A stretch of 42,932 bases of DNA from Actinomycetes bacterium. Lineage in GTDB: Bacteria; Actinomycetota; Acidimicrobiia; Acidimicrobiales; JAKAVM01. Shown piece by piece: positions 15,878-37,674 of the stretch. The stretch covers positions 1 to 42,932 of the forward strand of contig JAKAVM010000085.1 of assembly GCA_021827485.1 (NCBI GenBank). The letters run 5' to 3'. The notes under the pieces were generated by a model. That model was not told the origin of the DNA, made no database searches, and worked only from the letters and a program-made list of their open reading frames with translations. The stretch's first letter is position 1, and each line of letters opens with the position of its first letter. The position numbers were made by a program, and so were the translations under genes.

Positions 15878-17482
15878 GTGTCTTTCTACGCCACCGAGAC
15901 TTTTACCGAATCAGAAGGAGAAATACTAAAGCGCTATTTCACGAATCTAGATTCACCTGTTTTTGCTTTGGTGAATTTGCCTGAAGTAGTGAAGGGAGCA
16001 CTTTTTGCACGTTACTCGCGATCTTCCAAAAGCTTACGGAGACTTTTCCTTGACGAGTTCGTGGGCGAGCTGGATATGACTGGTGATTTGACCGTCGATG
16101 CTACGATTGGCCTAGAGAGAGCTGAAGCGCTATATGACAAGGTATTTTTCGAGTATGGAGATGATTCCGTCGCTCAATTAGGTGGTGTTCACTTAGCATG
16201 TGAGCAAGCCTCGAATTTATTGACCAAGATCCTTGAATGGGGTAGGTTGGCCGCCTATCTAGAGCAGTCGACTAGATATATTCCCTATGATAGCCGACTT
16301 GAAAATGGAAGGTATCGCTACTATCGCGAAAGATCAATTCTAGACTCACCATTAGGTGCGCGCTACGTATCGGATATGGACTTCATGTTTGACACCTACG
16401 CAGAACTACTTCCTAAGATGCAGTCTTTCTGTGCCAGAAAATTCCCCAAAAGTCCTGAGATCTCTGATTTCGTTTGGAGACGATCAATACAAGCCAAAGC
16501 CCTTGATGCTCTTCGTGGTCTTCTCCCAGCGGGTTCTCTATCCAACGTAGGTATTTACGGTACTGGCCAGACCTATGAGTTGTTGATTATGCGGATGCGA
16601 GCGAGTCATTTACCCGAAGCTCAAGAATATGCCGAACTTATTCTTGCCGAACTTCGAAAGGTGATCCCTTCCTTTCTTAGGCGTTTGGATCTGCCCGAGA
16701 GGGGAGGCGAGTGGGTTGAATATTTCAGACAGACTTCCCGAGATAGCGAGTTGATAGTCAATACGTTGGCTGATGCAACGAAATCTTCCAACTACCCGTC
16801 TGTAGAGCTTACAGATTTTGATCCAGATGGAGAGGATAAAGTCTTGCAAGCCATACTCTATTCACATTCTAATCTTGCAGAACGCAACCTAGTCGAAACA
16901 GTAAAGTCGATGTCCTCGGCACAAAAAGCGTTGCTATTTGAAACTTACATTGGTGAACGACTAAATCGTCGACACAAACCAGGTAGGGCACTGGAAAGGA
17001 CAAACTATCGGTTTGACATAGTTACCGATTATGGAGCATTTAGAGACCTTCAACGTCATCGGATGTTGACGATAGAGTGGCAGAAATTTAATAACGGCCT
17101 TGGTTATCTGGTGCCAGATGAAGTTTGTGAGGCCGGATTGGAGGAAAAGTATCGTGAGGTTATGGAATGCTCCTCTAGTCTTTATGAAGAGTTGCTTGGC
17201 AGCTTCCCCCATTGCGCTCCGTACGCTCTTGCACTGGCATTCAATATTCGCTTTTATATCCAGCTAAATGCCAGAGAGGCCATGCATCTCATCGAACTTC
17301 GTTCCGGGGCCCAAGGGCACCCCAACTATCGAAAAGTGGCCCATGAGATGCATCGATTAATAGACCAGGTTGCAGGTCATCACCTCATTGCAAAGGCAAT
17401 GCGGTTTGTCGATTTCGAAAGCCACGATTTAGAGCGACTTGGCGCCGAAACTCGAATGGAGGTCAAAAGACTTGGCATTTGA
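15878..17482 (+). CDS. Tandem ThyX-like (FAD-dependent thymidylate synthase family) protein
   Basis: A 534-residue protein made of two diverged ThyX-like halves. The first half has 'YGDDSVAQLGGVHLACEQAS' (93-112) and 'LEQSTRYIPYD' (128-138), which match the ThyX 'YGHxS' and 'ExSxRY' elements, but the RHR part is WGR (121-123). The second half has RHR (393-395, 'DLQRHRMLTIEWQKF') but no ExSxRY. ThyX uses both parts of this motif in one active site, so here they are split between the halves. It could be a structural relative with another role, or form composite sites. Single-domain ThyX is about 220-250 residues. GTG start, 102 bases after tatC. Confidence 0.8.
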   Translation: MSFYATETFTESEGEILKRYFTNLDSPVFALVNLPEVVKGALFARYSRSSKSLRRLFLDEFVGELDMTGDLTVDATIGLERAEALYDKVFFEYGDDSVAQLGGVHLACEQASNLLTKILEWGRLAAYLEQSTRYIPYDSRLENGRYRYYRERSILDSPLGARYVSDMDFMFDTYAELLPKMQSFCARKFPKSPEISDFVWRRSIQAKALDALRGLLPAGSLSNVGIYGTGQTYELLIMRMRASHLPEAQEYAELILAELRKVIPSFLRRLDLPERGGEWVEYFRQTSRDSELIVNTLADATKSSNYPSVELTDFDPDGEDKVLQAILYSHSNLAERNLVETVKSMSSAQKALLFETYIGERLNRRHKPGRALERTNYRFDIVTDYGAFRDLQRHRMLTIEWQKFNNGLGYLVPDEVCEAGLEEKYREVMECSSSLYEELLGSFPHCAPYALALAFNIRFYIQLNAREAMHLIELRSGAQGHPNYRKVAHEMHRLIDQVAGHHLIAKAMRFVDFESHDLERLGAETRMEVKRLGI

Positions 17483-20764: not shown

Positions 20765-22087
20765 TTAGCTCTTAGTCGGCAAAGCAGATGTTTTCGGCAA
20801 TGGTATTGGCGGAGGTGGCAAAGTGATTCCTAGCATTCGCGCAAGAGCTGGAATTCTTCCAGCAAGTTTCTTTGCCGTACGAATTAATTCTTCGTCCGCG
20901 TCTACAGGCAATCCCGCAGGGCGAACGTTAATCCTGACCGATGAACTCGCTGCAGCTTCAAGCAAAAGCGCCCATCTCTGAGGCGGTACCTGGGAGTTCA
21001 TAGCTTGTGAGGTAGCATGGGCAAGACTAGTCGCAAGTTCGCCTGGTAGACGAGCCGCGTTATCTGGCAGATTAGAAGATAGCTTGAGAGCTCGGATTAT
21101 TTGGCCTTCCTTCAGAAGATCCCGAATACTGTTCTCCCAGTTGTTGCGCGCTTGGAGCAATTTTGCATTTAGTGCATCTCGTAGTTTTGAAACCAGTTCG
21201 CCACCAACGGAATCACGCTGCGCAGCTTCCGATGAGCTTATCAAGTTGCGTAAGTCTAGCGCTGGAATATCGTTTATGGCCTTGAGAGCGCCTTGAGCGC
21301 GATCGCACCATGTAGCGACTTTGAGCTTTGGTAACAAACCTTCTGCCATTTGAATAATTGGTTCTTCGGGAACTTTTGGCAGATTGGACGTCATTGCGGT
21401 CCTATTCTGTTCCTCGATTGCTTTGCGAACTGCCGGTAGGCCACCTGCTACTAATTTATCCGCTATTGCTCGTTGTTCGAGGGATAGAGAGTCTAAGAAT
21501 GCTTTCTTATAGAAATCATCTATTTTATTTAAGGTCACGGATCGACGATTGTTTGATGAACGACTTTGCGAATTCCTAGATAGGCCAGTTCCTTTACGCA
21601 ATTCGTGAGATTTGATTGCAGGATTTTCTTCGCCGCCTTTATCGGGTCGGCCTTGCCCGCCTTTATCGAGTCGATCTTTTCGAGATACTCTGGACGTCAG
21701 TGAACTAGCAGATTTACTAACCCTGGGGGACTTGCTCTTAGTGTGTGAGGGTCGTTCGTTGCGCCCTTTGAGGGAGGTATCCAAACGGCCTGACGTTGCG
21801 TAAGTTGTTGTAACAAGTGGAAACTCCAATCCTGAGTTCAACCCGCCCCTGGGAATGATCTCCGACTCTTTGTTCAAAGTTGTTTCCTTAGGTAGCAAGA
21901 CATTAGCAATGGAGATACCGTCCATGTATATCTCTGCCTCGACTCTTAGTAGATCACCAATCTTGGAACCAGCTGGAAGCAAGCTAGAGTCGACCACACC
22001 TTTTGGTTGGCGAGCACCTTTGACCCGCCAGGTCCACAACCCATCACTGCGTTTGCTGGTAAGCTCAATATCTAATCTGTTTGCCAT
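20765..22087 (-). CDS. Uncharacterised protein with N-terminal OB/TRAM-like region and basic linker
   Basis: 440 residues from the ATG at 22087 (a TTG at 22105 would add six). I do not recognise it with confidence. Residues 1-65 ('LDIELTSKRSDGLWTWRVKG', then 'GDLLRVEAEIYMDGISIANV') look like a small all-beta domain of the OB/TRAM kind. About 70-180 is a disordered, Lys/Arg/Ser/Gly-rich linker ('DKGGQGRPDKGG'). From about 180 to the end it is helical ('FYKKAFLDSLSLEQRAIADK' and later), ending in a Pro-rich tail. The basic linker next to a beta domain could suggest nucleic-acid binding, which is inference only. It lies 104 bases after the che operon's last gene on the same strand and may or may not belong to it. 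Confidence 0.55.
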   Translation of the reverse strand: MANRLDIELTSKRSDGLWTWRVKGARQPKGVVDSSLLPAGSKIGDLLRVEAEIYMDGISIANVLLPKETTLNKESEIIPRGGLNSGLEFPLVTTTYATSGRLDTSLKGRNERPSHTKSKSPRVSKSASSLTSRVSRKDRLDKGGQGRPDKGGEENPAIKSHELRKGTGLSRNSQSRSSNNRRSVTLNKIDDFYKKAFLDSLSLEQRAIADKLVAGGLPAVRKAIEEQNRTAMTSNLPKVPEEPIIQMAEGLLPKLKVATWCDRAQGALKAINDIPALDLRNLISSSEAAQRDSVGGELVSKLRDALNAKLLQARNNWENSIRDLLKEGQIIRALKLSSNLPDNAARLPGELATSLAHATSQAMNSQVPPQRWALLLEAAASSSVRINVRPAGLPVDADEELIRTAKKLAGRIPALARMLGITLPPPPIPLPKTSALPTKS

Positions 22088-22191
22088 CTTTGTATAAGCT
22101 ACCAAGTAAGATGGATATTGGTCTAAATAGACGAGCGCTTTTTGGTTCCCGAGAGGGCTTCTTGGATCAGCGTAGCACCTTGATCTGTTTT

Positions 22192-23652
22192 CTAGTGAAG
22201 TTGTCCTATGAAATCTTCAGGATCTTCGATCAGTTCAGTGATCTGCGCCCCTAGTCGCCTCCCCATGCGTACGGCCTTGACGGTTGCAAGTGGGCGATTT
22301 CTTGCCGTAAGCATAAGTTTCGAACCGCGCTGAGCACCCAGTGGTATAACGAACCCTTCTTTGTAATTTGCCACTTCTTCCATCATTTGAGTAATTGAAG
22401 GGAAGTGGACTGATAAGTCCACTTGCAAATTGGGAACGGATTCTGAAATATCTGGTTCTGTACCTGCGCCATGAACACCGTGCGCTGCATCTTCAGCCAT
22501 GGCGAATAAAACAGGCTGGAGTGGAACTACTGGGAAGCAAATTGATGCATCAAAGGTACTTCCAGCTACTGTTACTGCCATCCACGCTACAATCCAGGTT
22601 AATGAGATTGTCACGCCTTCCATCATAAACTTCTCTGTGACATGTCTTACGATATGTGGTCGTACCGGATAGTGCTGCGAAATCGAATCTGATAGTTCTT
22701 CAACTACTGCGTTGATCACGGGGCCAAGCAACGTTACATCAAGATCCGTAAGGGTTCTGCGTATTGTGGTTGGCAATTCCGATCCACTGAGACGACTATC
22801 TAGACACTTTGCGGAAAGTCCGGGCGAAAAGGTTACAACGAACTGACTGGCAAGCGGATCCAGACGAAACGTCGTTATAAATGCATTGCTATCAATATTG
22901 GTTGAATAGTCATCCCAGCCCTGATGGTGTAGCTGAACTAGTTTAATATGAACTGGAGATTGGAGTATCTCGGTCATAGCTGCAGCAGCACCCTTGGTAA
23001 ATATATTCAGATTGGATCGCAATGCGTTAAGCTGGTTACGCTCTACTCCTTTAGGTTTGTGGAAGTCGTAGAGTCGTATAAGCTTTCCATCAACAAACTG
23101 GAGATCTCGTGCCGCTGCTTCTGCGCCGGTTGACATAACCATGTCTATTAATTCTTCTTCACCTGGTACATCGAGTAGAGCCATCGTGGCACTTCCAGCT
23201 TGAAAGCCCTCTACCTCGATTGCATAGCTCACCATGGGAATATGTGCATGTTGAAGCCGGCTCCAAACTGGAAGGTCAACGTTCTGAACGCTGTGCAGCA
23301 AGACCCGAGGATAAGCCTTGCCAGCAAAGAGAACATTCATGACATTGGAAACTTCTTTGTAATTATCCCAGAGATCCAGATCAAGGCTGCCTTTATAGAT
23401 TGCGTCATCACTCTCGCGAGGACTCTGTCCGGCTAACGCTACAGACATTACGGCTGTGAAATTCAAATCAGCTGCAACCGCTCCTATCGGTGATCCATTG
23501 GGGTCAACATGGAGAGATAACGAGTAGGCCGAGGTCTTGGAGCTGTCTTCCTGTCTAGTTACTTCAACCGGAACGCCGAGAAGAGTTTGAAACATCTCTG
23601 CAACCTGTCGTTCGCTGGGCAATTGCCCCATGGCATTTGCGTTGCTTGCCAT
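22192..23652 (-). CDS. FliM/FliN-like switch protein fused to a CheX-like phosphatase domain
   Basis: 486 residues with three parts. Residues 10-170 resemble CheC/CheX, with an E-x2-N motif at Glu100-Asn103 ('DNYKEVSNVMNVLF') typical of CheY-P phosphatases. Residues about 190-390 match the FliM middle domain: 'KLIRLYDFHKPKGVERNQLN', then 'SPVHIKLVQLHHQGWDDY', 'FSPGLSAKCLDSRLSG', and a 'CFPVVPLQPVL' end. Residues 405-478 match the SpoA/FliN C-terminal domain ('LQVDLSVHFPSITQMMEEV' to 'LGAQITELIED'). The usual FliM N-terminal CheY-binding peptide (EIDALL-like) is not visible. FliY of Bacillus combines CheC-like and SpoA parts, but this order is different. It abuts cheY, being the last clear gene of the che operon, yet no other flagellar gene is in the window. 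Confidence 0.8.
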   Translation of the reverse strand: MASNANAMGQLPSERQVAEMFQTLLGVPVEVTRQEDSSKTSAYSLSLHVDPNGSPIGAVAADLNFTAVMSVALAGQSPRESDDAIYKGSLDLDLWDNYKEVSNVMNVLFAGKAYPRVLLHSVQNVDLPVWSRLQHAHIPMVSYAIEVEGFQAGSATMALLDVPGEEELIDMVMSTGAEAAARDLQFVDGKLIRLYDFHKPKGVERNQLNALRSNLNIFTKGAAAAMTEILQSPVHIKLVQLHHQGWDDYSTNIDSNAFITTFRLDPLASQFVVTFSPGLSAKCLDSRLSGSELPTTIRRTLTDLDVTLLGPVINAVVEELSDSISQHYPVRPHIVRHVTEKFMMEGVTISLTWIVAWMAVTVAGSTFDASICFPVVPLQPVLFAMAEDAAHGVHGAGTEPDISESVPNLQVDLSVHFPSITQMMEEVANYKEGFVIPLGAQRGSKLMLTARNRPLATVKAVRMGRRLGAQITELIEDPEDFIGQLH

Positions 23653-24012
23653 TTAGATCATGCCATCAAGTGCTTTAGTTAGAATCTCGGGAGTAAAGGG
23701 TTTGGTTACAAAACAGCTTGCGCCTGCTTCGGCAGCCTTGACTTTCATCTCTTCACTAGCCTCAGTTGTGATGAACCCATACTGGCCATTATATCCCATA
23801 GCTTTGAGTTCCAAGAACAGTTCATATCCTGTCATGCCAGGCATATTCCAGTCAGCAAGAATGAGATCAGGGGTAAATCCTTCGACTACCTTGATTGCTT
23901 CCATACCTGTGCCCGCCTCTTCAAGTACTAGGTCGGCTATTCCAATTTGACGCAAGGAGCGCGTAACTATCATCCGCATGGCTTTGGAATCATCTACGAC
24001 CAACACCTTCAT
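23653..24012 (-). CDS. cheY: CheY-like single-domain response regulator
   Basis: A stand-alone receiver domain of 119 residues, phosphorylated by CheA. Acid pocket Asp7-Asp8, phosphoacceptor Asp54 ('ILADWNMPGMTG'), switch Thr at 'ITTEAS' and Lys104 ('FVTKPF') are all present. The ATG at 24012 has AGGAGG at 24022-24027, 9 bases upstream, the best ribosome site in the operon, so high expression is likely. A small stem-loop (24028-24040) lies directly upstream of that site. It directly abuts the FliM-like gene, whose CheX-like domain could act on its phosphate. Confidence 0.93.
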   Translation of the reverse strand: MKVLVVDDSKAMRMIVTRSLRQIGIADLVLEEAGTGMEAIKVVEGFTPDLILADWNMPGMTGYELFLELKAMGYNGQYGFITTEASEEMKVKAAEAGASCFVTKPFTPEILTKALDGMI

Positions 24013-24090: not shown

Positions 24091-24576
24091 CTATTGTTTG
24101 TTTTCCCAAAGCCCAACAATGAGGGGTTCTCCTTGCCAAATCAGATGTGCTTCGGCTACAAGGCTCTCTTCCAGCTTACCTTCGAGTCCTGGGGGGAGAT
24201 CATCTTTGAAACTTCCTATACCAGCAACTCCCGGTAAGGAAAGGTTGCAGGGCGCAGGAAAAAGTGCCTTAATATTTCCCCCAACAATATTAGTGAACTC
24301 TCCTACTGCATCGGAAAGTTCATCATCTTGAACCTCACTAGCGCTTTTCCCAAACATTCCGGCAGCGATATGTTTTGCAATTCTAACTGATGAAGAAATT
24401 CGAACTGAACCATGCCAGTTACCATTGATCTCGATAAAAGCTAACACTGCTATGGTTGGCTTAGCCGATATTTCAGCTTCGAGAAGCAGTTCTCCAGCAT
24501 CTTCTAATACCGATGACCAGACTTCTTGGGTAATGTCCGCAATAGTCTTTGTCGAAGGAATTAGTACCTCACTCAT
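24091..24576 (-). CDS. cheX: CheX-like chemotaxis phosphatase
   Basis: Predicted CheY-P phosphatase of the CheX/CheC/FliY group, returning the response regulators to the unphosphorylated state. 161 residues. The diagnostic helix is 'LSDAVGEFTNIVGGNIKALF' with Glu93 and Asn96 (E-x2-N) as the catalytic pair, after a beta-rich N-terminal half ('IAVLAFIEINGNWHGSVRIS'). It overlaps the upstream response-regulator stop by one base (TAATG). The operon therefore has two separate phosphatase-type domains, this one and that in the FliM-like protein, for at least two receivers. Confidence 0.88.
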   Translation of the reverse strand: MSEVLIPSTKTIADITQEVWSSVLEDAGELLLEAEISAKPTIAVLAFIEINGNWHGSVRISSSVRIAKHIAAGMFGKSASEVQDDELSDAVGEFTNIVGGNIKALFPAPCNLSLPGVAGIGSFKDDLPPGLEGKLEESLVAEAHLIWQGEPLIVGLWENKQ

Positions 24577-24980
24577 TATAAATCTCCTTGAATAGGTTGC
24601 GAAAAATGTTTTAGTACAGAAATCCCTAAAAGTTCCAACTTTTCTCCTACTGCTTCTCTGGTAAAGGGTTTCATGATGTATTCGTTTGCGCCAGCGGCGA
24701 GTGCTTGGACAATATGGTGACTATCACTCTCGGTGCTTACCATCATAATCGCCATTGGGCGCCACTCCGGGCGTCTACGTACTGCAGATACAAATTGGAG
24801 GCCGTCCATTACAGGCATGTGCCAGTCTACTAAGGCAATATCAGGTAACGATCCACTCTCCAATATTCCGAGGGCAGTTCTTCCGTCACCCGCTTCAGTA
24901 ACTTCTGCTCCAAGTTCTCTTAATATCCTTGATAATATCGATCGCATTGACCGTGAATCATCAACTACAAGAGCCTTCAT
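24576..24980 (-). CDS. Single-domain response regulator (CheY-like)
   Basis: 134-residue receiver: Asp7-Asp8, phosphoacceptor Asp52 ('ALVDWHMPVMDG'), Ser/Thr at 'MVSTES', and Lys104 ('YIMKPF'). A short C-terminal extension of about 15 residues ends in 'FSQPIQGDL'. It differs clearly from the second CheY-like protein at 23653, so the two may have different outputs, one a phosphate sink or pilus-linked and one for the switch-like protein. Start and stop each overlap a neighbour by one base (TAATG), so it is fully embedded in the operon. Confidence 0.92.
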   Translation of the reverse strand: MKALVVDDSRSMRSILSRILRELGAEVTEAGDGRTALGILESGSLPDIALVDWHMPVMDGLQFVSAVRRRPEWRPMAIMMVSTESDSHHIVQALAAGANEYIMKPFTREAVGEKLELLGISVLKHFSQPIQGDL

Positions 24981-25807
24981 TAATTGCCTCTCTTTTGGTA
25001 ATAGGTAGCACCACTACTCTGCACCGGAACTATGTGGTCTGCGATACCAATCGTTGTCTCTGTCGAACCAAGCAATAGGTAACCACCATCATTTAGTTTT
25101 GACCAAATCGCTTCGAGGACCTGTCTCTTGGTCGGCGTGTCAAAATAAATTAGGACATTGCGTAGCAGAATAATGTCAAACTTACTTGGTGGAAGCCAGT
25201 CGTGAACAAGGTTCAAGGTTTGGAAACGAGTCCGCTTCCGAATCTCTTCAGATATTTGAAATGAGGCTTCACGCCGAGTGAAGTACTGTGCAAGCATCAT
25301 TGCTGGGAGCCCGCGGTTCATCTCCAACGTGCTAAAAATTCCGAGTTTTGCACGAGAGATTGCTGACTCGCAAAGATCCGTACCGAGTAAACGGACATCC
25401 CACTCGTTAGTTTCAGGGAAGAAATAGTCAAGCATCATCGCTACCGAGTAAAGTTCTTGTCCGGTTGAGCTTGCTGCGCTCCATACCGATAAAGACTGCT
25501 GGTCTGCTTTTCGCGAAATCAGTTCCGGCAGCATCAAGTCCTTGAGTAGGTCGAATGGGTGAATATCTCTATACCAGGAGGTTTCTCCAGTGGCCATTGC
25601 CTCCACTATCTTGACCTGTAGCCCATCATCCCCGGATTCAATGGCATGGCGGATCAATCCATCGCCTGTTGTAAATCCCAGTTCGCGAGCCATACCACCA
25701 AGTCGTGCTTCTACCAAATACTCTTGCTCGCTTGTAAGCACTATTCCAGAGCGTTTAAAGACTAAGTCTCTCAACTGAGTGAAGAAGCTAGTTGTTATTG
25801 GAGTCAT
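24980..25807 (-). CDS. cheR: Chemoreceptor methyltransferase CheR
   Basis: Methylates glutamates on methyl-accepting chemotaxis proteins with S-adenosylmethionine, for adaptation. 275 residues. The helical N-terminal domain ('LRDLVFKRSGIVLTSEQEYL') precedes a catalytic Rossmann domain with 'LSVWSAASSTGQELYSVAMM' (SAM site), 'LLGTDLCESAISRAKLGIF', and 'FDIILLRNVLIYFDTPTKRQ'. The usual 'FR' after 'TSW' reads 'YRD' ('ETSWYRDIHPF'), a mild variation. It overlaps cheB by four bases. Confidence 0.95.
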   Translation of the reverse strand: MTPITTSFFTQLRDLVFKRSGIVLTSEQEYLVEARLGGMARELGFTTGDGLIRHAIESGDDGLQVKIVEAMATGETSWYRDIHPFDLLKDLMLPELISRKADQQSLSVWSAASSTGQELYSVAMMLDYFFPETNEWDVRLLGTDLCESAISRAKLGIFSTLEMNRGLPAMMLAQYFTRREASFQISEEIRKRTRFQTLNLVHDWLPPSKFDIILLRNVLIYFDTPTKRQVLEAIWSKLNDGGYLLLGSTETTIGIADHIVPVQSSGATYYQKRGN

Positions 25808-26949
25808 GAACTTGCTCTACGCCTTGATGCGATATGTACAAGGCGAGTTATGGCGCCAGCAATATCGGCCAGCGGAAGAATCTCACTTGCAAGGCCAGCT
25901 TTGGCAATGGAACCCGGCATCCCCCACACCAATGAGCTTTGGCTATCTTGAACAATTACGCCCCCTCCAGCCTCGACTAATGCTTTAGATCCAGAAAGTC
26001 CATCCTCGCCCATTCCTGTTAGAATAACTCCGAGTATTGCACCTCCCCAAAGTGAAATTGCACTTCGAAAGAGAACATCGACAGCAGGCTTGACCGAATG
26101 CTCGGGCGGATCATCTAGGGCTACTGTGAATACCTCTGCCCCGACCCTTTTTACGCCTAAGTGCATACCTCCGGCAGCGATATATACACTTCCAGCCTTG
26201 ACAAGCATTCCCGAACTTGCTTCCACTACACGCAAAGGCGATCTTGTCTCTAGGCGGTCAGCAAGCATTTGAGTAAATACTGGAGGCATATGTTGGACCA
26301 CCAAAACTGGAACTTCCAGATCCTCAGGAAGGAGTGGTATTACGTCGGCTAGAGCATTAGGTCCGCCGGTTGAAGCTCCAATAACAACGGCATCGATACG
26401 ATTTATTTTCGAAGATCTTGGCTTAGGAATGACGGTTTCAACTGGTGATTCAATAGTGGTAGCAGTAGGAGTTGAATTAGGGGCGTACCTAACTTTATGT
26501 ACACTAGGTCGAGCCAGCAATCTAATCTGAGGTATCAAGCGCGTCGTGACCGCTTCCATCGCCGCTTCACGCCCTCCCTCTTTATGAGGCTTTGTCACAT
26601 AGTCAGTTGCGCCCAGAGCAAGCGCTTCTAAGGTTACGGCAGCACTTTTCTCGGTAACGGTAGAGAACATGATTACTGGCAATTCATGATACTTCTTACG
26701 AATTGCCTTCAACGTCTCAATCCCATCCATTTCAGGCATTTCAACATCTAAAAGTATGACATCCGGCTTTATTGAGTCGATCCGTTCAATCGCCTGTATG
26801 CCGTTATGTGCCGACCCAGCCACCTTCATGCCATCCTGCTCGTCAATAATTGATTGGACCATCCAGCGGGTAACAGCTGAATCATCTACAATCATGACTC
26901 TTATGGAAGCATCAATGTCTTCTTTGCCTTTAGTCGCTTCAAGAGGCAC
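25804..26949 (-). CDS. cheB: Chemotaxis response regulator/protein-glutamate methylesterase CheB
   Basis: Demethylates chemoreceptors when phosphorylated by CheA, opposing CheR. 381 residues. The receiver domain (17-130) has phosphoacceptor Asp68 ('VILLDVEMPEMDG'). After a linker of about 50 residues, the esterase domain (185-375) carries the triad Ser193 ('IGASTGGP'), His220 ('VVQHMPP') and Asp316 ('TGMGEDG'). The ATG lies 11 bases inside the end of cheW, so the two are translationally coupled. Confidence 0.96.
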   Translation of the reverse strand: MPLEATKGKEDIDASIRVMIVDDSAVTRWMVQSIIDEQDGMKVAGSAHNGIQAIERIDSIKPDVILLDVEMPEMDGIETLKAIRKKYHELPVIMFSTVTEKSAAVTLEALALGATDYVTKPHKEGGREAAMEAVTTRLIPQIRLLARPSVHKVRYAPNSTPTATTIESPVETVIPKPRSSKINRIDAVVIGASTGGPNALADVIPLLPEDLEVPVLVVQHMPPVFTQMLADRLETRSPLRVVEASSGMLVKAGSVYIAAGGMHLGVKRVGAEVFTVALDDPPEHSVKPAVDVLFRSAISLWGGAILGVILTGMGEDGLSGSKALVEAGGGVIVQDSQSSLVWGMPGSIAKAGLASEILPLADIAGAITRLVHIASRRRASS

Positions 26950-27478
26950 TTAAATCTACCACTTTATCCGTATCCAATATTAATAAAAGCCTACCCGAAA
27001 GTTTAAAGGTACCGGTACAAAGCTTGCGTATTTGAGGAGCTACGGTAGCGGGTACTGGTTCAAAAGATTCTGGAGATGGCTCGACAACATCTCTGGTACG
27101 ATCAACCAAAAGACTTATAACTTCATCATTGTGGCGAATCACCGCGTTCATCGCAGACGCACCTGCAGGCCGTGGTTCTAAGCCAAATCTAGATCGCAAG
27201 TCCAACGCTGTAACAATTTGCCCTCGTAAGTTTATGAGCCCCCTTACACCCTTTGAGGCAAGAGGAACGAAGGTCATTTGCTGGTTACGAAGGACTTCCT
27301 GAACAATTCCAACTTCAATACCTACTAAGAGATCGACAATTTCAAAGGTACAGTACTGTATGTTATGGCCGGAATCTAGAGCGTGATTTGATATAGGGAA
27401 TTCCACAGTAGCCAAGTTTCTGGGAGAGTCCATGGTAGTCCCATTTGATTGAATCTTTCCGTTACGATCTGATGTCAT
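26939..27478 (-). CDS. cheW: Chemotaxis coupling protein CheW
   Basis: Links chemoreceptors to CheA. 179 residues. A disordered start of about 38 residues precedes the double SH3-like CheW fold ('YCTFEIVDLLVGIEVGIVQE' through 'LVDRTRDVVEPSPESFEPVP' and 'FKLSGRLLLILDTDKVV'). The conserved 'RGLINLRGQIVTALDLRSRFG' region is present. The ATG is at 27478, 20 bases downstream of cheA. The long N-terminal tail is unusual for CheW, and a later start cannot be excluded. Confidence 0.93.
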   Translation of the reverse strand: MTSDRNGKIQSNGTTMDSPRNLATVEFPISNHALDSGHNIQYCTFEIVDLLVGIEVGIVQEVLRNQQMTFVPLASKGVRGLINLRGQIVTALDLRSRFGLEPRPAGASAMNAVIRHNDEVISLLVDRTRDVVEPSPESFEPVPATVAPQIRKLCTGTFKLSGRLLLILDTDKVVDLSAS

Positions 27479-27497: not shown

Positions 27498-29795
27498 TCA
27501 CCGAGCCTCCGCAAAAAATCCTTCTCTTTGCATCCATAAGATTGCTGCTTCTAAGTCCAGAACATCTGTTACGCGTCCATGGAGCACTACTGCACCGGCA
27601 AGTCCATAACCCGAGTCAACGTCCATAAGATCTACCACATCTTCCAGGACGTCGACCATGTCTGCTACAACAAATCCAATAGGGCCATGGTCAGATTCGT
27701 GCACAACTACTTTCAATGACTGATCAGGCGTCGTCGCGTGGCCTAATATCCCAAGGACCTCGTGCAATCTTACCAATCTCATTAATGAACCGCGATACTG
27801 TACAACGTCAATTTCTCCAGACTTTTCAACGTCGGAAGCTTCAATTTCCTCTAGACGAGCGATTTGCTCAACCGGGATAGCTACTGTTCGATTCTCACCT
27901 ACCCGCAAGATAACAAATGCTGACTTACTACCTTCGTCGATTTGATCCTCTGAGACCGAGTGGGCCTCGGATGCGAGCCTAGCAGTCGTGTCCTTTATCC
28001 CACCAAGCACTGCTAGACCCACAACGTCCAATATCAAAGCTACCGAACCGTCGCCTAAAATAGTTGCACCTGCGAATGCCTGGATCTGTTTGACTAAAGA
28101 TCCGAGTGGCTTGACAACTATCTCTTGGGTCTCATACACCTCATCGAAAATTAAGCCAAACTTCAAGTCGTCTGCTTGGAGGACGGCAACAGTTGCAGGA
28201 CCATTTGTTGGCCTGCCATCACTAGGAAATCCCAGGATTGAACTTAGGCTGACTAGAGGGAGCAACGCCCCCCGTAGTCTAAAGACGCTAGCATCTCCAA
28301 TGCGCTCAACAACCGTTGGAGACGCTTGAGTACCAATATGGAGCATCTCAACTAAATTAGGCTGGGGAATTGCAAATCGTTGATCTCTTGCTCCAATGAG
28401 CAGAGCCGGAATAATTGCCAACGTTAGAGGAATCTTTATTCGAAAGGTAGTTCCTCGATCTGGTTCACTAAAAACATCGACGGTTCCACCAATGGACTCT
28501 ATGTTGGAACGCACAACGTCCATCCCAACACCTCGACCCGATACACTTGTTATCTCTTGAGCAGTGGAAAAACCTGGAGCAAAAATCAACTCCATTATAT
28601 CTCTTGATGATATGGTCTCTAATTGATCTTGTGTTATTAGACCCATTTCGACCGCTTTAGCACCAACTCTCTCCAGGTCTATACCTTTACCATCATCTAA
28701 AGTCTCTAACACGACTTGGCCACCTTCGTGATAGGCCCTAACGATAAGCTGACCTGTTGGCTGCTTTCCCTTCTTCATTCGCACGTCAGGATCTTCTATG
28801 CCATGATCTAAGGAGTTACGGATAAGATGCGTGAATGGCCCACGGATTGCTTCTAGTATTGTGCGATCAAGTTCGGTCTCCCCACCTTCCATCTCCAGGT
28901 TTACCTTCTTGTTGAACTGACTCGAAAGATCCCTTACAAGTCGAGGTAACGTTGACCACAAATGAGCTAGTGGTTGCATTCGCGTCTTCATAACGCCTTC
29001 TTGCAACTCGCTCACGATGGAGGATAACCTTTGAACGGTTTGCGTCAACGAGACATCTTCTAGTATATCGGCTGAGGAGATAACCTCATTACGGGCAAGT
29101 ACGAGTTCTCCGACTTGACGCATTAGTGTGTCAAGTAGTTCAACATCCACTCGGACAGTTCTATCGGATACTTGCTTAGTGGCCTGATGGGCTGGCTGGT
29201 TGTCGGTTGTTTCGGATACTTGCTTAGTGGCCTGATGGGCTGGCTGGTTGTCGGGGAGGGGTGAAATCTCAGCAGTGGAGTTTTCAACCGGGGTCGAACT
29301 TGGAGTTTCGGAACTCTGGTCTTGAGGAGATTGGGACTGGGGAGCTTGGGACTGAGGAGCTTCGGACTGGGGAGCTTGGTCTGGCTCGGAGTCATTGAGG
29401 GCCTGGGCGAGTGTTGCTACAATCTCATCTACCGAGATATCAGGTTCGGCACCGGTTTGTTCGATGACTCTTAGAATTGAGCGAATAATGTCTCCAGAAC
29501 GCAGGAGGGCGTTTGTTCGGAAGGTATTTAGCTGCAACTCCCCATCACGCAGCTTCGACAAGAGGGTTTCAGCACCGTGCGTGATCTCTTCGAGCAGGGG
29601 AAAACCGAGAAAACCACAGGTGCCCTTTATGGTGTGAAAGATCCTAAATGCGGAGCTCAAGTTGTTATGAGAAGTCGGGTCAGACTCTAACTGAACAATG
29701 TCGCGGTCAAATTGGTCGAGTCCTTCGGTTGACTCTGCTAGAAACTCGAGAACGATCTCATCCATTGATTCGTCGATCACAGGTCTTTTGCTCAC
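27498..29795 (-). CDS. cheA: Chemotaxis histidine kinase CheA with two CheW-like domains and no P2 domain
   Basis: Autophosphorylates on His54 ('RIFHTIKGTCGFLGF') in the P1/HPt domain (1-125) and passes phosphate to CheB and the CheY-like proteins. A Gln/Pro/Ser-rich linker (132-210) with two copies of a 16-residue repeat stands where P2 usually is. P3 dimerisation is about 212-275. P4 kinase is 280-455 with N box Asn327 ('LIRNSLDHGIED'), G1 'DDGKG' (367-371) and G2 'GRGVGMD' (420-426). P5 is 460-600. A second CheW-like domain, 624-757, ends the protein. Total 765 residues. The GTG start diverges from the chemoreceptor gene across 115 bases. Confidence 0.95.
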   Translation of the reverse strand: MSKRPVIDESMDEIVLEFLAESTEGLDQFDRDIVQLESDPTSHNNLSSAFRIFHTIKGTCGFLGFPLLEEITHGAETLLSKLRDGELQLNTFRTNALLRSGDIIRSILRVIEQTGAEPDISVDEIVATLAQALNDSEPDQAPQSEAPQSQAPQSQSPQDQSSETPSSTPVENSTAEISPLPDNQPAHQATKQVSETTDNQPAHQATKQVSDRTVRVDVELLDTLMRQVGELVLARNEVISSADILEDVSLTQTVQRLSSIVSELQEGVMKTRMQPLAHLWSTLPRLVRDLSSQFNKKVNLEMEGGETELDRTILEAIRGPFTHLIRNSLDHGIEDPDVRMKKGKQPTGQLIVRAYHEGGQVVLETLDDGKGIDLERVGAKAVEMGLITQDQLETISSRDIMELIFAPGFSTAQEITSVSGRGVGMDVVRSNIESIGGTVDVFSEPDRGTTFRIKIPLTLAIIPALLIGARDQRFAIPQPNLVEMLHIGTQASPTVVERIGDASVFRLRGALLPLVSLSSILGFPSDGRPTNGPATVAVLQADDLKFGLIFDEVYETQEIVVKPLGSLVKQIQAFAGATILGDGSVALILDVVGLAVLGGIKDTTARLASEAHSVSEDQIDEGSKSAFVILRVGENRTVAIPVEQIARLEEIEASDVEKSGEIDVVQYRGSLMRLVRLHEVLGILGHATTPDQSLKVVVHESDHGPIGFVVADMVDVLEDVVDLMDVDSGYGLAGAVVLHGRVTDVLDLEAAILWMQREGFFAEAR
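29164..29254 (-). repeat. 48-bp direct repeat in the cheA linker (two copies)
   Basis: Copies at 29164-29206 and 29212-29254 are identical over 43 bases with a 48-base period. They encode two 'TDNQPAHQATKQVS' units in the disordered region between P1 and P3. In-frame length changes here should be tolerated. Confidence 0.9.
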
Positions 29796-29910: not shown

Positions 29911-31839
29911 ATGCTGGGAAAATTGGGCAGATTAGTAGTTAGGCCAATGTCGGCGCTTGCCGGTAACGTACAGATGGGGGCCAAGGTTGGATTAGTCCTG
30001 GTCTTGGTGTTAGTACCGCTAGGCATTGTCCTAAACGACTATGTAGGCCAGCAGTCAACTCGAATCGCTACTGCAAAAGCCCAGCAAAGGGGTATAGAAT
30101 ACTTAGGCTCCGTCTTGGCATTGGATCGACAAGTGTTGGTTGCCAGGCAGGATGCGCAGTCGGGAAACACAGCAGGAAGTTCTCTGAGTTCAGCCCTATC
30201 GTCGGTCGATTCACAGGATACATCCAATGCTCAAGCCCTTGGGTTGAGTTCAATTTGGCAGAGTACGAGATCATCCATAGTTTCAGCTGAGTCGGCAACA
30301 GGTTCGCCAAATCAGATAGTTGCGTCTTGGAACAGTGCCCAATCCTCAATTGAATCGTTTATCTCTAAGATTGCCGATAGCTCTGAGCTGGGTAGCGAAC
30401 CCACAACCGGATTAACGTATTTGAACGACATACTTACCAATGTCTTAGTGAACTATTCCGACTATGCAAGCCAGGAACTGTCCAATTCAAGCAACACCGT
30501 GACTGGACAGAACCAAGTTGAAATTGCTCAACTTGCTAAAATTGAGTTGGCTAAGTTAAATTCTGATTTTTCAAAAGTCGCATCTTCACAAGACACTGCT
30601 TCACTTGCAGCGCAGCTAGCCGGTCCGATCGGCTCCTTGAGCGTAGGTTCATCAACTACTCTGGCTCAGATGATTCAAAATGTGGCAAGTATTGAAAGCC
30701 AAGGGACGAGTCAGTTTAATCTGATAATTTCACAGAACATTTCCTCGTTGAATGCTGGTGAGGCAAGGAACGAAGTTCTTGCGATTGTTATGGCCGTACT
30801 GGCGATCTGGTTAGCTTGTGGGATTATTGTTCAAGTACGTGACTCTTCTCACTTACTCATGGAAGCAATGCAGAAAGTTGCTCAGGGCGATGTAACTATT
30901 CAAGCTGAGTTGCAAAGTGATGATGAATTCGGAATGTTTGCGAAACATTTGAACGCTGCCCTTGTGAAAATTAGGGAGTCTCTACAGGTAATACATCAAA
31001 AAATGAACTCAGTGTCAGCATCGTCAAAGGATCTGTCCTCGGTTTCATCGACTATGTCGTCGACCGCAATTGCTACCTCGGAACGAGCTGCCGCAGTGTC
31101 TTCGGCGAGCGAACAGGTCAATACCAACGTTACGGTTGTTGCGGCTGCAATTGAAGAGATGGTTGCTAGCGTGAAAGAAATAGCATCAAACGCATCTAAG
31201 GCTTCAGAAGTTGCTGTACGTGCCTCTGAGATTGCGACAATTGCTGGAGAGAATATCGATAAATTAGAGACAAGCTCAATTGAGATTTCCAATGTTGTTT
31301 CGCTCATTACTTCAATAGCCGAACAAACTAATCTTCTTGCTCTAAATGCGACGATTGAAGCAGCCCGGGCAGGAGAGATGGGTAAGGGATTTGCAGTTGT
31401 CGCAAATGAAGTCAAGGATCTGGCCGCGAAGACGACCAAAGCAACCGAGGATATATCGCACAGGATCGAAGCAATTCAGGCTAACACTCAGGGAGCGACG
31501 GAGTCGGTCTCACAGATCAGGCAGATTGTTGGTGAAATTAACGACATCCAAGGATCAATTGCTTCATCTGTTGAAGAGCAAGCAGCTGCGGTATCGGAGG
31601 TGGGGAGAAGTGTTTCTGAAGCGGCTGGATCAACTGCCGCAATCGTTGACAACATAACCGGTGTCGCCAAGTCCGCTCAGGAAACTAGTGAAGGCGCAAA
31701 TAGGAATCAATACTCTGCCGAGCAAGTTTCAGAAGTATCTATCGAACTTCAGCAATTAATTGGAAATCTTCTTGGTCAGTTTCAATTTGGCAATGGTAAG
31801 ACAGAGAGCACTTTACAGAATAAGTTAGGTTCAAACTAA
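29911..31839 (+). CDS. Methyl-accepting chemotaxis protein
   Basis: Membrane chemoreceptor that controls CheA. 642 residues. Membrane helix 1 is about 25-43. An extracytoplasmic, Ser/Gln/Ala-rich helical sensor region of about 240 residues follows (no family recognised), and then membrane helix 2 at about 286-308 ('[20 protein letters not shown]'). HAMP comes next, then the signalling domain with the hairpin tip '[20 protein letters not shown]' starting at 471. The C-terminus ('QNKLGSN') lacks an NWETF-type CheR tether. AGGAGG at 29896-29901 precedes the ATG by 9 bases, so it is well translated. It is divergent from cheA, so it is the natural input for this array. Confidence 0.95.
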
Positions 31840-31852
31840 TCGGACGTACAAG

Positions 31853-32779
31853 ATGAATGGTCGTATTGAGTCATTTGCAGTTGACGAACTACTTGAGTTT
31901 TTAATCGGTTCAGCTAAATCCGGTGTGCTTGAGGTTTTTATAGACGCCCCTGTAACAAATGGAGGCGGTGACGCGATCAGCGAAGTAGTCACTACCAGCG
32001 GTGTAGAAGTGCTCAATGAGCCTACCGTTAGATCCCTTGGGTCAACTAGTAAGCTATGGCTAAATAGGGGATCTCTCATCGGTTGGCACAGTGAGGTCTA
32101 TGAAGATTTTAACGAGTTTATAATGTCGCTTTTTGACGTTGACCATGGAAGATTCGAATTTGAGCAAAGCGAGCCTGTGGATAACCCTGCACAATCGGTC
32201 GATATCAGAGGGCATCTAGAGTTTTGGCGACAAAATAGAGTGCACGAAGAAGATCTTGATGGTACTTTAGCGTTCTTATCCATAGCTGGATCTCACGATT
32301 TTGAACTCTCACCGCTTGAGTGGAATACGATTTGTCTACTGCTAGCTTCTGGTCACGATACCGAAGTGAACAGGATCCGAATTGGTGAGATTGCCTCCCA
32401 GCTTGAAGTAGAACCTTCGACTGTCGAAATGGCGCTTAGAAGATTGATCGAGGGGGGATTGCTGAGCATATCTTCAAGTGATGGAGAGGGTAATCAGGCC
32501 GTTGAACATTCCATGTTTTCACCTGCTGCTATCAACCTTGCATTTGAGCTAAGAAAGTTTCAATTCACTGGGCCAGTCCCACCTCCAGGGCCACCAACTT
32601 TTAGGCAATCACAACTGTCTGAAGCTGCTCCAGATAATATACATCAACCTATTCAATTGTCTGACGCTGGCGAGGAAGACATACATCAAGATTCGGGGGC
32701 CGAGCTTTCCGATTCATCAAGTAATTTGCAAGGAGCCGAAGATAAAGACCTGCTCAAATGGTTTCTTCGCAGTTCGTAG
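31853..32779 (+). CDS. PATAN-domain (DUF4388) protein with winged-helix-like region
   Basis: 308 residues. The N-terminal about 115 residues begin 'GRIESFAVDELLEFLIGSAK' and 'SGVLEV', matching the PATAN/DUF4388 pattern, and close with 'LFDVDHGRFEFEQ'. PATAN proteins are linked to two-component and type IV pilus motility control in several bacteria (family knowledge). Residues about 150-215 ('RIGEIASQLEVEPSTVEMAL' then 'RRLIEGGLLSI') look like a winged helix. The tail is Pro-rich, then acidic, ending 'KDLLKWFLRSS'. It starts 13 bases after the chemoreceptor gene, so is co-transcribed with it and precedes pilB. It could connect the array to the pilus; that is inference. Confidence 0.75.
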   Translation: MNGRIESFAVDELLEFLIGSAKSGVLEVFIDAPVTNGGGDAISEVVTTSGVEVLNEPTVRSLGSTSKLWLNRGSLIGWHSEVYEDFNEFIMSLFDVDHGRFEFEQSEPVDNPAQSVDIRGHLEFWRQNRVHEEDLDGTLAFLSIAGSHDFELSPLEWNTICLLLASGHDTEVNRIRIGEIASQLEVEPSTVEMALRRLIEGGLLSISSSDGEGNQAVEHSMFSPAAINLAFELRKFQFTGPVPPPGPPTFRQSQLSEAAPDNIHQPIQLSDAGEEDIHQDSGAELSDSSSNLQGAEDKDLLKWFLRSS

Positions 32780-32997: not shown

Positions 32998-33030
32998 AGT
33001 GCCCTTGAGTGGTATTTTGTGGGAGCAACT

Positions 33031-34725
33031 ATGGTAATGATAAGGGGAAATGAGGACCTCCTCAAGACTCTTTTGATTCAAAATGGACTGTTGACTCAGG
33101 ACCAAGTTAACTATGCGGTCTCGATACAAGGTTCGTCGGGGCGAGCTTTCAGTCGAGTGCTGCTTGATGAGTCAATGATCAGCGAGAACGACCTTGTTAG
33201 GGTACTGGCTCAACAAGCTGGCTATACATTTATTGAGCTGGAAGACTACCATACCGATCCCTCAGCGGTTTCTATGATTGGATCTCCTCTTGCAAATAGG
33301 TATGGGCTGATGCCAATTGCCTGGGACGGCAACCGATTGGTTGTGGCCATGTCGGATCCCAACGACATAGTTGCAATTGATGACTTACGCGCGGTCACAG
33401 GATGTGAGATATCTGTAGTTGTTGCTACCCCTTCTGCATTGCAAAGTGCAATTGAATCCCACTACCGCCATGATCAGATGGTTCTAGACATATCGGAACA
33501 AGCTGCTGAGACATTTCAAGGTGAAGACCTTAGCCACCTTAGAGAAGCAATTGAAGATGCCCCTTTAGTAAAGCTTATGAATCTAATGATCTCGCAAGCG
33601 GTTACAGATCGAGCGTCTGATATTCACTTTGAACCAACCGAGCATGAGGTTCGAGTCCGATACAGGATAGATGGTGTTCTCTATGAAGTGATGCATCTGC
33701 GCAAGAATATTCAAAATGGAATTACTTCGCGAATCAAAATCATGGCAGATATGGATATTGCCGAGCATAGGCTTCCACAAGACGGAAGAATGACGGCTGA
33801 TGTGAATGGTAGGACAATTGACCTGAGAGTCGTTTCATTTCCAATTGCTTGGGGCGAGAAAGTGGTCATGCGTATTTTGGACCACTCTAAAGCACTATAT
33901 CGACTAGACGAACTTGGATTTATGCCAGAAGCCTTAGCAAGATACGAGGATTGCTACAGAAGGTCGCATGGTACGATATTGGTTACCGGACCAACGGGTT
34001 CAGGCAAGACGACTACGTTGTACGCAACATTGAATGTTTTGAACGAGGAGTCCAAGAATATTCTTACGGCTGAAGATCCGGTAGAATATAGAATTCCAGG
34101 GATTAATCAGATTCAAGTCAACTATAAAACTGGTTTGACATTTCCATTTGCCCTAAAGGCGATGATGAGAGGCGATCCTGATATCATTCTGGTGGGGGAA
34201 ATCCGTGATCAAGATACTGCCCGGATGGCCACAGAAGCTGCGCTAACAGGGCACCTCGTGCTCTCAACTTTACATACCAACGATGCAGCTTCAACTACAT
34301 TGCGTCTAACGGAGATGGGGGTAGAACCTTTTCTTGTATCTTCGGCGGTTACTTGCGTAGTTGCTCAACGGCTTGCTCGACAGCTTTGTGATAGGTGCAA
34401 AGAACCTTTCTACCTTTCGCCAGGCCAATCGAAGTTGGCAGATCGCCTTGGGTTGTTCCCAGAGGGTTGGGACCAACCTTTAACCCTTTACAGGCCAGTC
34501 GGTTGTAATATCTGCTCTAAGACTGGTTTCAGGGGCAGAATGGCCATATATGAAGTTCTGGTCATCAGTGAGGAGATAGGCCAGCAAATAGTGGAAGGTG
34601 CACACACAGAAGACATTCGCAGGTTGGCACTAGAGCAAGGCATGGAGTCTCTTCTCCAATCTGGAATGCACCATATTCGCCAAGGTACCACAACCGTTGA
34701 AGAAGTTCTAAGGGTTATCAGTTGA
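33031..34725 (+). CDS. pilB: Type IV pilus assembly ATPase PilB
   Basis: Hexameric motor that drives pilus extension from the cytoplasmic face. An N-terminal MshE/GspE-N region (about 5-150, 'LLKTLLIQNGLLTQDQVNYA' then 'ISENDLVRVLAQQAGYTF') may bind c-di-GMP in some relatives. The ATPase has Walker A 'GPTGSGKTTT' (about 320), Walker B 'DPDIILVGEIRD' (about 382), and the zinc-binding four-cysteine part Cys453/Cys456 and Cys492/Cys495, typical of PilB and absent from PilT. I start at the ATG at 33031 because GGGAG lies five bases before it; a GTG at 33019 would add four residues. 564 residues. Confidence 0.94.
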   Translation: MVMIRGNEDLLKTLLIQNGLLTQDQVNYAVSIQGSSGRAFSRVLLDESMISENDLVRVLAQQAGYTFIELEDYHTDPSAVSMIGSPLANRYGLMPIAWDGNRLVVAMSDPNDIVAIDDLRAVTGCEISVVVATPSALQSAIESHYRHDQMVLDISEQAAETFQGEDLSHLREAIEDAPLVKLMNLMISQAVTDRASDIHFEPTEHEVRVRYRIDGVLYEVMHLRKNIQNGITSRIKIMADMDIAEHRLPQDGRMTADVNGRTIDLRVVSFPIAWGEKVVMRILDHSKALYRLDELGFMPEALARYEDCYRRSHGTILVTGPTGSGKTTTLYATLNVLNEESKNILTAEDPVEYRIPGINQIQVNYKTGLTFPFALKAMMRGDPDIILVGEIRDQDTARMATEAALTGHLVLSTLHTNDAASTTLRLTEMGVEPFLVSSAVTCVVAQRLARQLCDRCKEPFYLSPGQSKLADRLGLFPEGWDQPLTLYRPVGCNICSKTGFRGRMAIYEVLVISEEIGQQIVEGAHTEDIRRLALEQGMESLLQSGMHHIRQGTTTVEEVLRVIS

Positions 34726-34771
34726 GCATGAATACTTATAAGTTTACAATTAGAGGGATTAGCTAAGTAAA

Positions 34772-36349
34772 ATGCAGAGTGCTTCGCGTCAATTAGGAGA
34801 ATTACTCATTGAGCGGAAAGTACTTTCGCGCGATACGTTAGAACAGTTGCTCACACGCGAAGAGGCGGATGGTGTTCCTCTTATAAAGCTTTTGACTGCG
34901 GAAGGTCTGGTCTCTGAAAAAGACTTAGCAGCGGCTATCGCCCAGAAAGCAGGATATGAGTTCGTTGACTTCAATGAGATAAATCTCAACCCCAAAGTGG
35001 ACGGGCTTATTCCGCCAGACATGGCAGCTCACTATAGGGCCGTGGCAATTGATATCGTTGATGATTTCTTGAGAGTTGCATTGATGGATCCATCGGATGC
35101 GGCAACCATATCCGAACTAGAGAAAGTAACAGGATTTTCGATCAAGCCTGTTATGGCAGATAAACATGATCTTGAGAGGATACTTAGAGCACTTCTTGGC
35201 GACCAACTTGTTGCCGGTCCCGGCATCGAAGGTGCTGAAACGGATGGGTCCGGAGGTGATCTGGACTTTCAGGTTATCAAGGGAGAACTCCATATAAATG
35301 AACTGCTGACAAAGGTAGTTGAGTTTGGGGGTTCGGACCTACATCTGACGGTTGGAATTCATCCCACGATGCGTTTGCATGGGGAGATGCTGCCGATGAC
35401 CGAATATCCCAAGCTATCTGGATCGGAGACTCGAAGGCTGATTTTCGCAATTCTTACGCAACGCCAAAGAGAGCGTTTTGAGACCGATAAAGAGTTAGAT
35501 ACGGCTCACGCTGTACCAGCATGTGGAAGATTCAGGGTGAATGTATTTTATCAGCGGGATTCTGTTGGTGGTGTCATGAGGTCCATTCCTTATGAAATTG
35601 TGCCTCTGGACTCACTGGGGCTGCCTCCAGCTGTGTCGCAGTTTGCCGATCTGCCTAGAGGCCTAGTGCTGGTAACAGGTCCTACTGGATCGGGGAAGTC
35701 GACAACCCTTGCTTCCTTGGTGGACATCATAAATACGAACAAGAAATGTCACATTATAACCGTTGAAGATCCAATTGAATTTCTACATAGACACAAGGCA
35801 GCCGTTGTTAATCAGAGGGAAGTAGGAGAAGATACGCATTCTTTCTCTGAAGCGCTGAAACACGCCTTGCGCCAGGACCCCGATGTCATTCTGGTTGGAG
35901 AAATGAGGGACCTTGAAACGATTTCTACGGCACTTACAGCCGCAGAAACTGGTCACTTAGTTTTTGCAACGCTCCACACTCAAGACGCTCCTCAGTCGAT
36001 TGATAGGGTGATTGATGTTTTCCCTGCTCACCAGCAGCAACAGATCCGTACGATGCTAGCTAGTGCACTCCAAGGGGTAGTAACGCAGCAACTCTTGCCA
36101 CTGGCTGGCAGACCAGGTCGTGCTGTTGCTTCAGAGGTGTTAGTTTGTACTCCTGCTGTAAGGAATCTCATTCGAGAGGGAAAGACACACCAAATTTACT
36201 CTGCTATGCAGGCGGGAGGAAAGTATGGCATGCAGACAATGGACATGTCTCTTGCAACATTAGTTCGTCGTAATGAGATATCTCTAACGATGGCGGTAGA
36301 TCGCTGTTCCAATGAAGAAGATTTGAAGAGATTGGCTGGAGTCGCATGA
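34772..36349 (+). CDS. pilT: Type IV pilus retraction ATPase PilT with an N-terminal MshE-type domain
   Basis: Powers pilus retraction and thus twitching. 525 residues, versus about 345-375 for ordinary PilT. Residues 1-145 are a PilB/MshE-type N-terminal domain ('RQLGELLIERKVLSRDTLEQ', 'GLVSEKDLAAAIAQKAGYEF'). Residues 175-525 are PilT: 'ELLTKVVEFGGSDLHLTVG', Walker A 'GPTGSGKST' (303-311), Walker B 'DPDVILVGEMRD', the His box 'GHLVFATLHT', and the PilT-specific 'PAVRNLIRE' (461-469). No tetracysteine site is present, unlike PilB. It lies 46 bases after pilB and 27 before pilC. Confidence 0.93.
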   Translation: MQSASRQLGELLIERKVLSRDTLEQLLTREEADGVPLIKLLTAEGLVSEKDLAAAIAQKAGYEFVDFNEINLNPKVDGLIPPDMAAHYRAVAIDIVDDFLRVALMDPSDAATISELEKVTGFSIKPVMADKHDLERILRALLGDQLVAGPGIEGAETDGSGGDLDFQVIKGELHINELLTKVVEFGGSDLHLTVGIHPTMRLHGEMLPMTEYPKLSGSETRRLIFAILTQRQRERFETDKELDTAHAVPACGRFRVNVFYQRDSVGGVMRSIPYEIVPLDSLGLPPAVSQFADLPRGLVLVTGPTGSGKSTTLASLVDIINTNKKCHIITVEDPIEFLHRHKAAVVNQREVGEDTHSFSEALKHALRQDPDVILVGEMRDLETISTALTAAETGHLVFATLHTQDAPQSIDRVIDVFPAHQQQQIRTMLASALQGVVTQQLLPLAGRPGRAVASEVLVCTPAVRNLIREGKTHQIYSAMQAGGKYGMQTMDMSLATLVRRNEISLTMAVDRCSNEEDLKRLAGVA

Positions 36350-36376
36350 ACGAGATTTCAATGAGGACAATTTACA

Positions 36377-37627: not shown

Positions 37628-37674
37628 GTCTCGTCAATTTGGCTAAGTTCTAGTGTTCTAGAGACTTGAATAAA

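Follow-up and report, generated by a model that had tools for sequence, protein, structure and literature searches.

A CheX-like domain joined to a second FliM at the end of an actinobacterial chemotaxis operon

In a large group of actinobacteria the FliM of the flagellar motor has no standard CheY-binding peptide, and the route by which the phosphorylated response regulator CheY (CheY-P) reaches the motor is in question. The question is raised here by the last gene of a chemotaxis operon in a stretch of 42,932 nucleotides (the window), which encodes the parts of a flagellar switch protein behind a chemotaxis-type domain. The hybrid gene occupies positions 22192–23652 on the minus strand, starts with ATG, and encodes 486 residues. 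A preliminary description had proposed that a CheX/CheC-like domain, a FliM middle domain, and a SpoA domain follow one another in this protein, and this order is borne out by Pfam for the latter two domains and by hhalign for the first. The FliM middle domain (PF02154; residues 195–382, positions 22507–23070, minus strand) scored an E-value of 1.4e-16 and 61.4 bits against a cut-off of 27, and matched the FliM crystal structures 4gc8 and 4fq0 in a PDB search; the FliM middle-domain segment LYDFHKPKGVERNQLNALR corresponds to residues 194–212. The SpoA, or FliN C-terminal, domain (PF01052, FliMN_C; residues 407–475, positions 22228–22434, minus strand) scored 1.3e-9 and 38.3 bits against a cut-off of 23.8. 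With 94.8 bits the hybrid fell below the cut-off of 219.6 bits of the TIGR01397 equivalog model for full-length FliM and, as had been proposed, inspection of its sequence revealed no EIDALL-type CheY-binding peptide.

The front domain spans residues 1–186 (positions 23095–23652, minus strand). Residues 1–190 gave no Pfam match above cut-off, and a PDB search with an 18-row profile of the front domain returned nothing meaningful, so that its homology was judged by comparison with the CheX encoded in the same operon. An alignment of 44 front-domain sequences matched this CheX family in hhalign with a probability of 83.5% and an E-value of 8.4e-6, the E-x2-N signature of the one falling on the E-x2-N signature of the other; a shallower alignment gave 2.9e-4, and eleven control che and fli families gave E-values of 0.13 to 0.64. 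Comparison of the front domain with the FliM middle domain (E 0.13) was uninformative, since CheX compared with FliM likewise gave an E-value of 0.2. One member of the family matched the Pfam CheX model (PF13690) at 8.7e-6 and 26.2 bits, under the cut-off of 27. The CheC/CheX signature suggested at Glu100 and Asn103 was read intact as E100-V-S-N103 (positions 23344–23355, minus strand), with the Glu kept in 43 and the Asn in 41 of the 44 members, placing both among the most conserved positions. From these alignments we conclude that the front domain is a predicted CheX-family domain, diverged in sequence, with its catalytic signature intact. AlphaFold models made with a three-row alignment only had a mean pLDDT of 30.5 for the whole hybrid and 33.5 for the front domain alone.

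The hybrid gene closes a che operon, as the preliminary description had stated, and this operon is complete. From 5' to 3' on the minus strand, the order is cheA (27498–29795), cheW (26939–27478; PF01584, 6.2e-26), cheB (25804–26949; PF01339, 5.1e-61), cheR (24980–25807; PF01739, 4.4e-53), cheY1 (24576–24980; PF00072, 6.9e-26), cheX (24091–24576; PF13690, 2.3e-16), cheY2 (23653–24012; PF00072, 4.5e-25), and the hybrid gene, with the TAA stop codon of cheY2 abutting the ATG of the hybrid without a gap. CheY1 and CheY2 each consist of a single receiver domain, and CheX, a separate phosphatase-family protein, also carries E-x2-N. A gene for a methyl-accepting chemotaxis protein (29911–31839, plus strand; PF00015, 2.5e-31) diverges from cheA. 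A CheA with an extra CheW domain and the gene order AW..BR are features of the F5 chemosensory class, as are 38H chemoreceptors; the class is described for flagellated Acidimicrobiia, Nitriliruptoria, and Actinomycetia, and is the dominant flagellar class of these actinobacteria (PMC10746217). The CheA encoded here contains two CheW-like stretches and the order is AW..BR; judged on these two features, the operon appears to match the F5 class.

Several other genes of the window may be recorded here. Directly downstream of the hybrid gene lies a gene for a 446-residue protein with no Pfam or NCBIfam match (20765–22105, minus strand), and genes of 420 and 451 codons with no Pfam match follow the hybrid genes of two related genomes (L005:13135–14397 in G001 and L006:3818–5173 in G002). 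Two ThyX (Thy1) stretches are found in one chain of 534 residues (15878–17482, plus strand). Type IV pilus ATPase genes (PilB- and PilT-like) and a PilC-like gene occupy 33019–37627, confirming that pilus motor genes lie about 10 kb from the hybrid. They include two consecutive PilB-like ATPases with MshEN domains (33019–36349, plus strand); in the second of these the T2SSE match is confined to the center of the model. Between the chemoreceptor and pilus genes, a gene at 31853–32779 (plus strand) encodes a protein that weakly matches DUF4388 and contains a helix-turn-helix-like stretch. Beyond the pilus genes, two convergent genes of the FtsW/RodA/SpoVE family (37666–38919, plus strand, and 39365–40783, minus strand) enclose a gene with a bifunctional-nuclease domain.

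The scan of window proteins, which covered all but part of the left third, turned up no further flagellar gene, and to this extent the preliminary description was correct. The output of the operon, which it had left open, is very probably flagellar, however. A flagellar cluster that looks complete lies on contig C46 of this genome's assembly (2.78 Mb, 92% complete) and comprises flhB, fliO, fliN, an ordinary fliM (342 codons), fliL, motB, motA, fliH, and fliG, among others, and the CheA of the window operon is the only one found in the genome. Because a flagellar cluster with an ordinary FliM is present elsewhere, the hybrid is an extra FliM and not the sole switch protein; it is a second, paralogous FliM in a genome with a flagellar gene set and one chemotaxis system. 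In the open frame of the ordinary FliM, at most about 19 residues precede YDF and there is no EIDALL motif, and no stretch of DNA coding for E-I-[D/N]-A-L-L was found in the 92% complete assembly. The earlier proposal that a phosphatase-like domain had replaced the CheY peptide is thus correct in that the hybrid lacks the peptide, but the peptide is missing from the ordinary FliM as well, indicating that the fusion does not simply replace it within one protein.

Within one Acidimicrobiales family (f1) the fusion was found in each of the four genomes sampled, these being the genome of the window (G000), a second genome of the same genus (G001), and representatives of two further genera (G002 and G003). 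Hybrids in two other assemblies are 79% and 59% identical to that of the window, the former in the metagenome-assembled genome 'Acidimicrobiales bacterium isolate clean4' (L005), which is close to the window organism. An assembly artefact was rejected on this basis, the fusion architecture being identical in the other assemblies. Neither the phylum sample of 396 genomes nor the class sample of 395 genomes contained a fusion of the front domain to FliM outside this family, and the ordinary FliMs of related genomes do not have this architecture. The claim that the domain order differs from that of the usual FliM and FliY therefore survived the search of other genomes, the order being restricted to family f1 among the genomes sampled.

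The hybrid of G003 differs from the other three. Its halves lie on two contigs (L031:1–783, minus strand, and L030:2–973, plus strand), the ends of which share a 13-base overlap in frame, and we take this as probably one gene broken by assembly. The protein is highly diverged (34–40% identity), has a longer, acidic linker, is encoded outside any che operon, and carries Ser at the position of the catalytic Asn; neither CheA nor CheW was detected in this genome, which is 81% complete. These features would fit retention of the catalytic site only alongside chemotaxis, as seen in a single incomplete genome.

We examined the origin of the FliM part and the constraint upon it by comparison with ordinary FliMs. 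In a tree of 74 FliM sequences the four hybrids formed one clade (support 100/99) within the Acidimicrobiales FliM clade (97/96), indicating that the FliM part of the hybrid is a duplicated Acidimicrobiales FliM. In G000, G001, and G002 the middle domain of the hybrid is conserved to the same degree as that of the ordinary copy: between G000 and G002 it is 77% identical in the hybrid and 74% identical in the ordinary FliM. The SpoA domain is 42% identical in the hybrid compared to 70% in the ordinary FliM, and the front domain is 53% identical. The GGxG loop of FliM contacts FliG. This loop is degraded in the hybrids, which read SGSE or SGPD, and GGEF in G003; the ordinary copy reads SGSG. The comparisons show a strongly constrained middle domain, as packing into the ring would need, and a SpoA domain and GGxG loop that have drifted. 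The degraded loop and the less conserved SpoA domain make incorporation of the hybrid into the C ring uncertain.

The front domain belongs to an actinobacterial family whose members outside family f1 are mostly standalone proteins, some 160 residues long, with genes that close che operons; most of these genes directly follow cheY2, and those of family f32 follow cheY2 and cheX. Five genomes from four families encode, in a single open frame, a CheY receiver with the front domain at its C-terminus (G018, L152; G681, L156; G649, L155/L189; G710, L145; G052, L150), and the receiver domains of these proteins were confirmed. The fusion of G649 adjoins motA/motB in a flagellar cluster, approximately 12 kb from fliM. 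With CheY as its partner in some lineages and FliM in family f1, the domain is subject to the classical fusion argument, by which CheY, the domain, and FliM act together. The two types of fusion suggest, without proving, a link between CheY-P and the switch. FliN-like genes were also seen near members of this family. A FliN/FliY-like gene of G454 (L183:2658–3728, minus strand) separates cheR from cheX within the che operon, while a second FliN is encoded in the flagellar cluster nearby; it is another case of a switch protein drawn into a che operon; a similar FliN-like gene in G500 (L185:7083–7946) overlaps the frame of the front-domain gene.

The distribution of the front domain was compared with those of fliM, the EIDALL peptide, and CheA. 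In the phylum sample, fliM was present in 15 of 15 domain carriers and the domain in none of the 336 genomes without fliM. In the class sample, fliM was found in 24 of the 26 carriers checked, remaining undetected in G500 and G528. The two sets, which have G034 in common, together with G001 comprise 41 distinct domain-bearing genomes, 39 of which have fliM. No EIDALL was present in the FliMs read from domain-bearing genomes. Genomes with both FliM and CheA divided into 25 with EIDALL and no domain, 14 with the domain and no EIDALL, 8 with neither, and none with both. Among the 8 with neither, G061, G176, G272, and G388 carry a variant of EIDALL, and G184, G243, G289, and G345 have neither EIDALL, nor a variant, nor a detectable front domain. 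When EIDALL was absent, the domain was found in 14 of 22 genomes with CheA compared to 1 of 12 without CheA. These counts are structured by ancestry and do not represent independent events. Counted by independent pairs, the link between CheA and the domain stands at about 5 to 0, all in the expected direction; the exclusion between EIDALL and the domain comes to two independent pairs, essentially one or two evolutionary transitions, too few for a clean evolutionary test. The pattern of EIDALL, domain, and CheA agrees with the published switch of chemosensory class from F1 to F5 (PMC10746217).

These data suggest that the fusion provides an alternative route for the chemotaxis signal to the flagellar motor. 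In the reading that we favor, and which we regard as having an even chance of being correct, the hybrid is a second, signal-receiving FliM in the C ring that captures CheY-P and probably hydrolyses it. A duplicated FliM gene would have been joined to the front-domain gene with which che operons end in these bacteria. The middle and SpoA domains of FliM would seat the hybrid in the C ring beside the ordinary FliM and FliN, and the CheX-like front domain would stand in for the usual EIDALL peptide of FliM. There it may capture phosphorylated CheY, probably the CheY2 encoded immediately upstream, and so bias rotation; the Glu-x2-Asn site would then probably hydrolyse the phosphoryl group, so that the signal is ended at the place of its reading. 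Related actinobacteria would divide this job between a standalone front-domain protein and a FliM without the peptide. A broader form of the proposal, which we advance tentatively, is that in F5 actinobacteria FliM lost its CheY peptide and a CheX-like protein of the che operon links CheY-P to the switch, docking and dephosphorylating it, the hybrid and the CheY fusions being covalent halves of this arrangement.

The main rival to a signal-receiving FliM is a phosphatase-only role like that of FliY in Bacillus, in which the hybrid would be a motor-tethered CheY-P phosphatase that terminates the signal but does not receive it, and CheY-P would act through the FliM middle domain, FliN, or another surface. 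The strong conservation of E-x2-N in the front-domain family, the presence of standalone front-domain proteins among the che genes, and the pairing of a CheC-type phosphatase domain with SpoA in FliY (PMC6946799) speak for this explanation. We nevertheless consider it unlikely, as the operon already has a dedicated CheX, the FliMs here are without the usual CheY-docking peptide and a receiver is needed, and the domain-CheY fusions of five genomes fit docking or relay as well as a phosphatase.

A decayed FliM duplicate might instead act in the cytoplasm, outside the C ring, as a soluble decoy or regulator with its FliM part a mere scaffold. The degraded GGxG loop, the reduced conservation of SpoA relative to the ordinary FliM, and the strong divergence of the G003 hybrid (34–40% identity) point in that direction, but the middle domain is conserved like the ordinary copy in the other three genomes, SpoA remains above the Pfam cut-off, and the hybrid is retained in 4 of 4 sampled genomes of the family, making such a role quite improbable. 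Control of type IV pili by the operon and hybrid is the least credible explanation and was largely rejected. The nearby pilus genes are the reason for raising it; against it, FliM and SpoA domains are parts of the flagellar C ring, a flagellar cluster and only one CheA are found in the genome, the two CheW domains of CheA and the gene order AW..BR match F5, the dominant flagellar class of these actinobacteria (PMC10746217), and the front-domain family tracks fliM across the phylum.

The hybrid and its front-domain family thus offer a concrete, testable candidate for the route of CheY-P to a motor with a peptide-less FliM. If a signal-receiving FliM is the correct reading, it would give the bacterial flagellar switch a second signal-transfer route and would stand alongside FliY as a second lineage whose switch protein has incorporated a CheC/CheX-family domain. 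In the open-access literature searched, we found neither this architecture nor any fusion of a CheX-type domain with FliM or CheY described.

Like FliM (PF02154 and PF01052, TIGR01397), the hybrid has the middle and SpoA domains in that order and is nested among actinobacterial FliMs; unlike FliM, it has a CheX-like domain of approximately 186 residues at the position of the EIDALL peptide, and is encoded in a che operon, the ordinary FliM being encoded elsewhere in the genome. It resembles FliY as a C-ring-type protein with a CheC/CheX-family domain that would be fit to terminate CheY-P signaling at the motor. In FliY, however, a single CheC-type domain directly precedes SpoA, whereas the hybrid has a full FliM middle domain between the two and derives from FliM by duplication. 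To the CheX/CheC phosphatases of CheY-P (PF13690, PF04509) the front domain is related by its profile similarity to CheX and the aligned E-x2-N, but the front domain of the window is too diverged for Pfam, and some lineages have the family fused to FliM or CheY. Archaeal DUF439 proteins (later CheF), which link Che and the archaellum, embody the same concept, an adaptor that connects CheY to a motor without the FliM peptide (PMC2666748); here a CheX-like domain is fused into a bacterial switch protein, and no sequence relation is claimed. In the Campylobacter C ring (FliM, FliY, and FliN), paralogous switch proteins likewise share one ring (PMC6946799), but there a FliN-like protein was duplicated, whereas here it was FliM, which moved to the che operon and was fused to a che protein. 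The parts of the hybrid are of known kinds; their combination, and the recurring link of CheY, a CheX-like domain, and FliM, are new.
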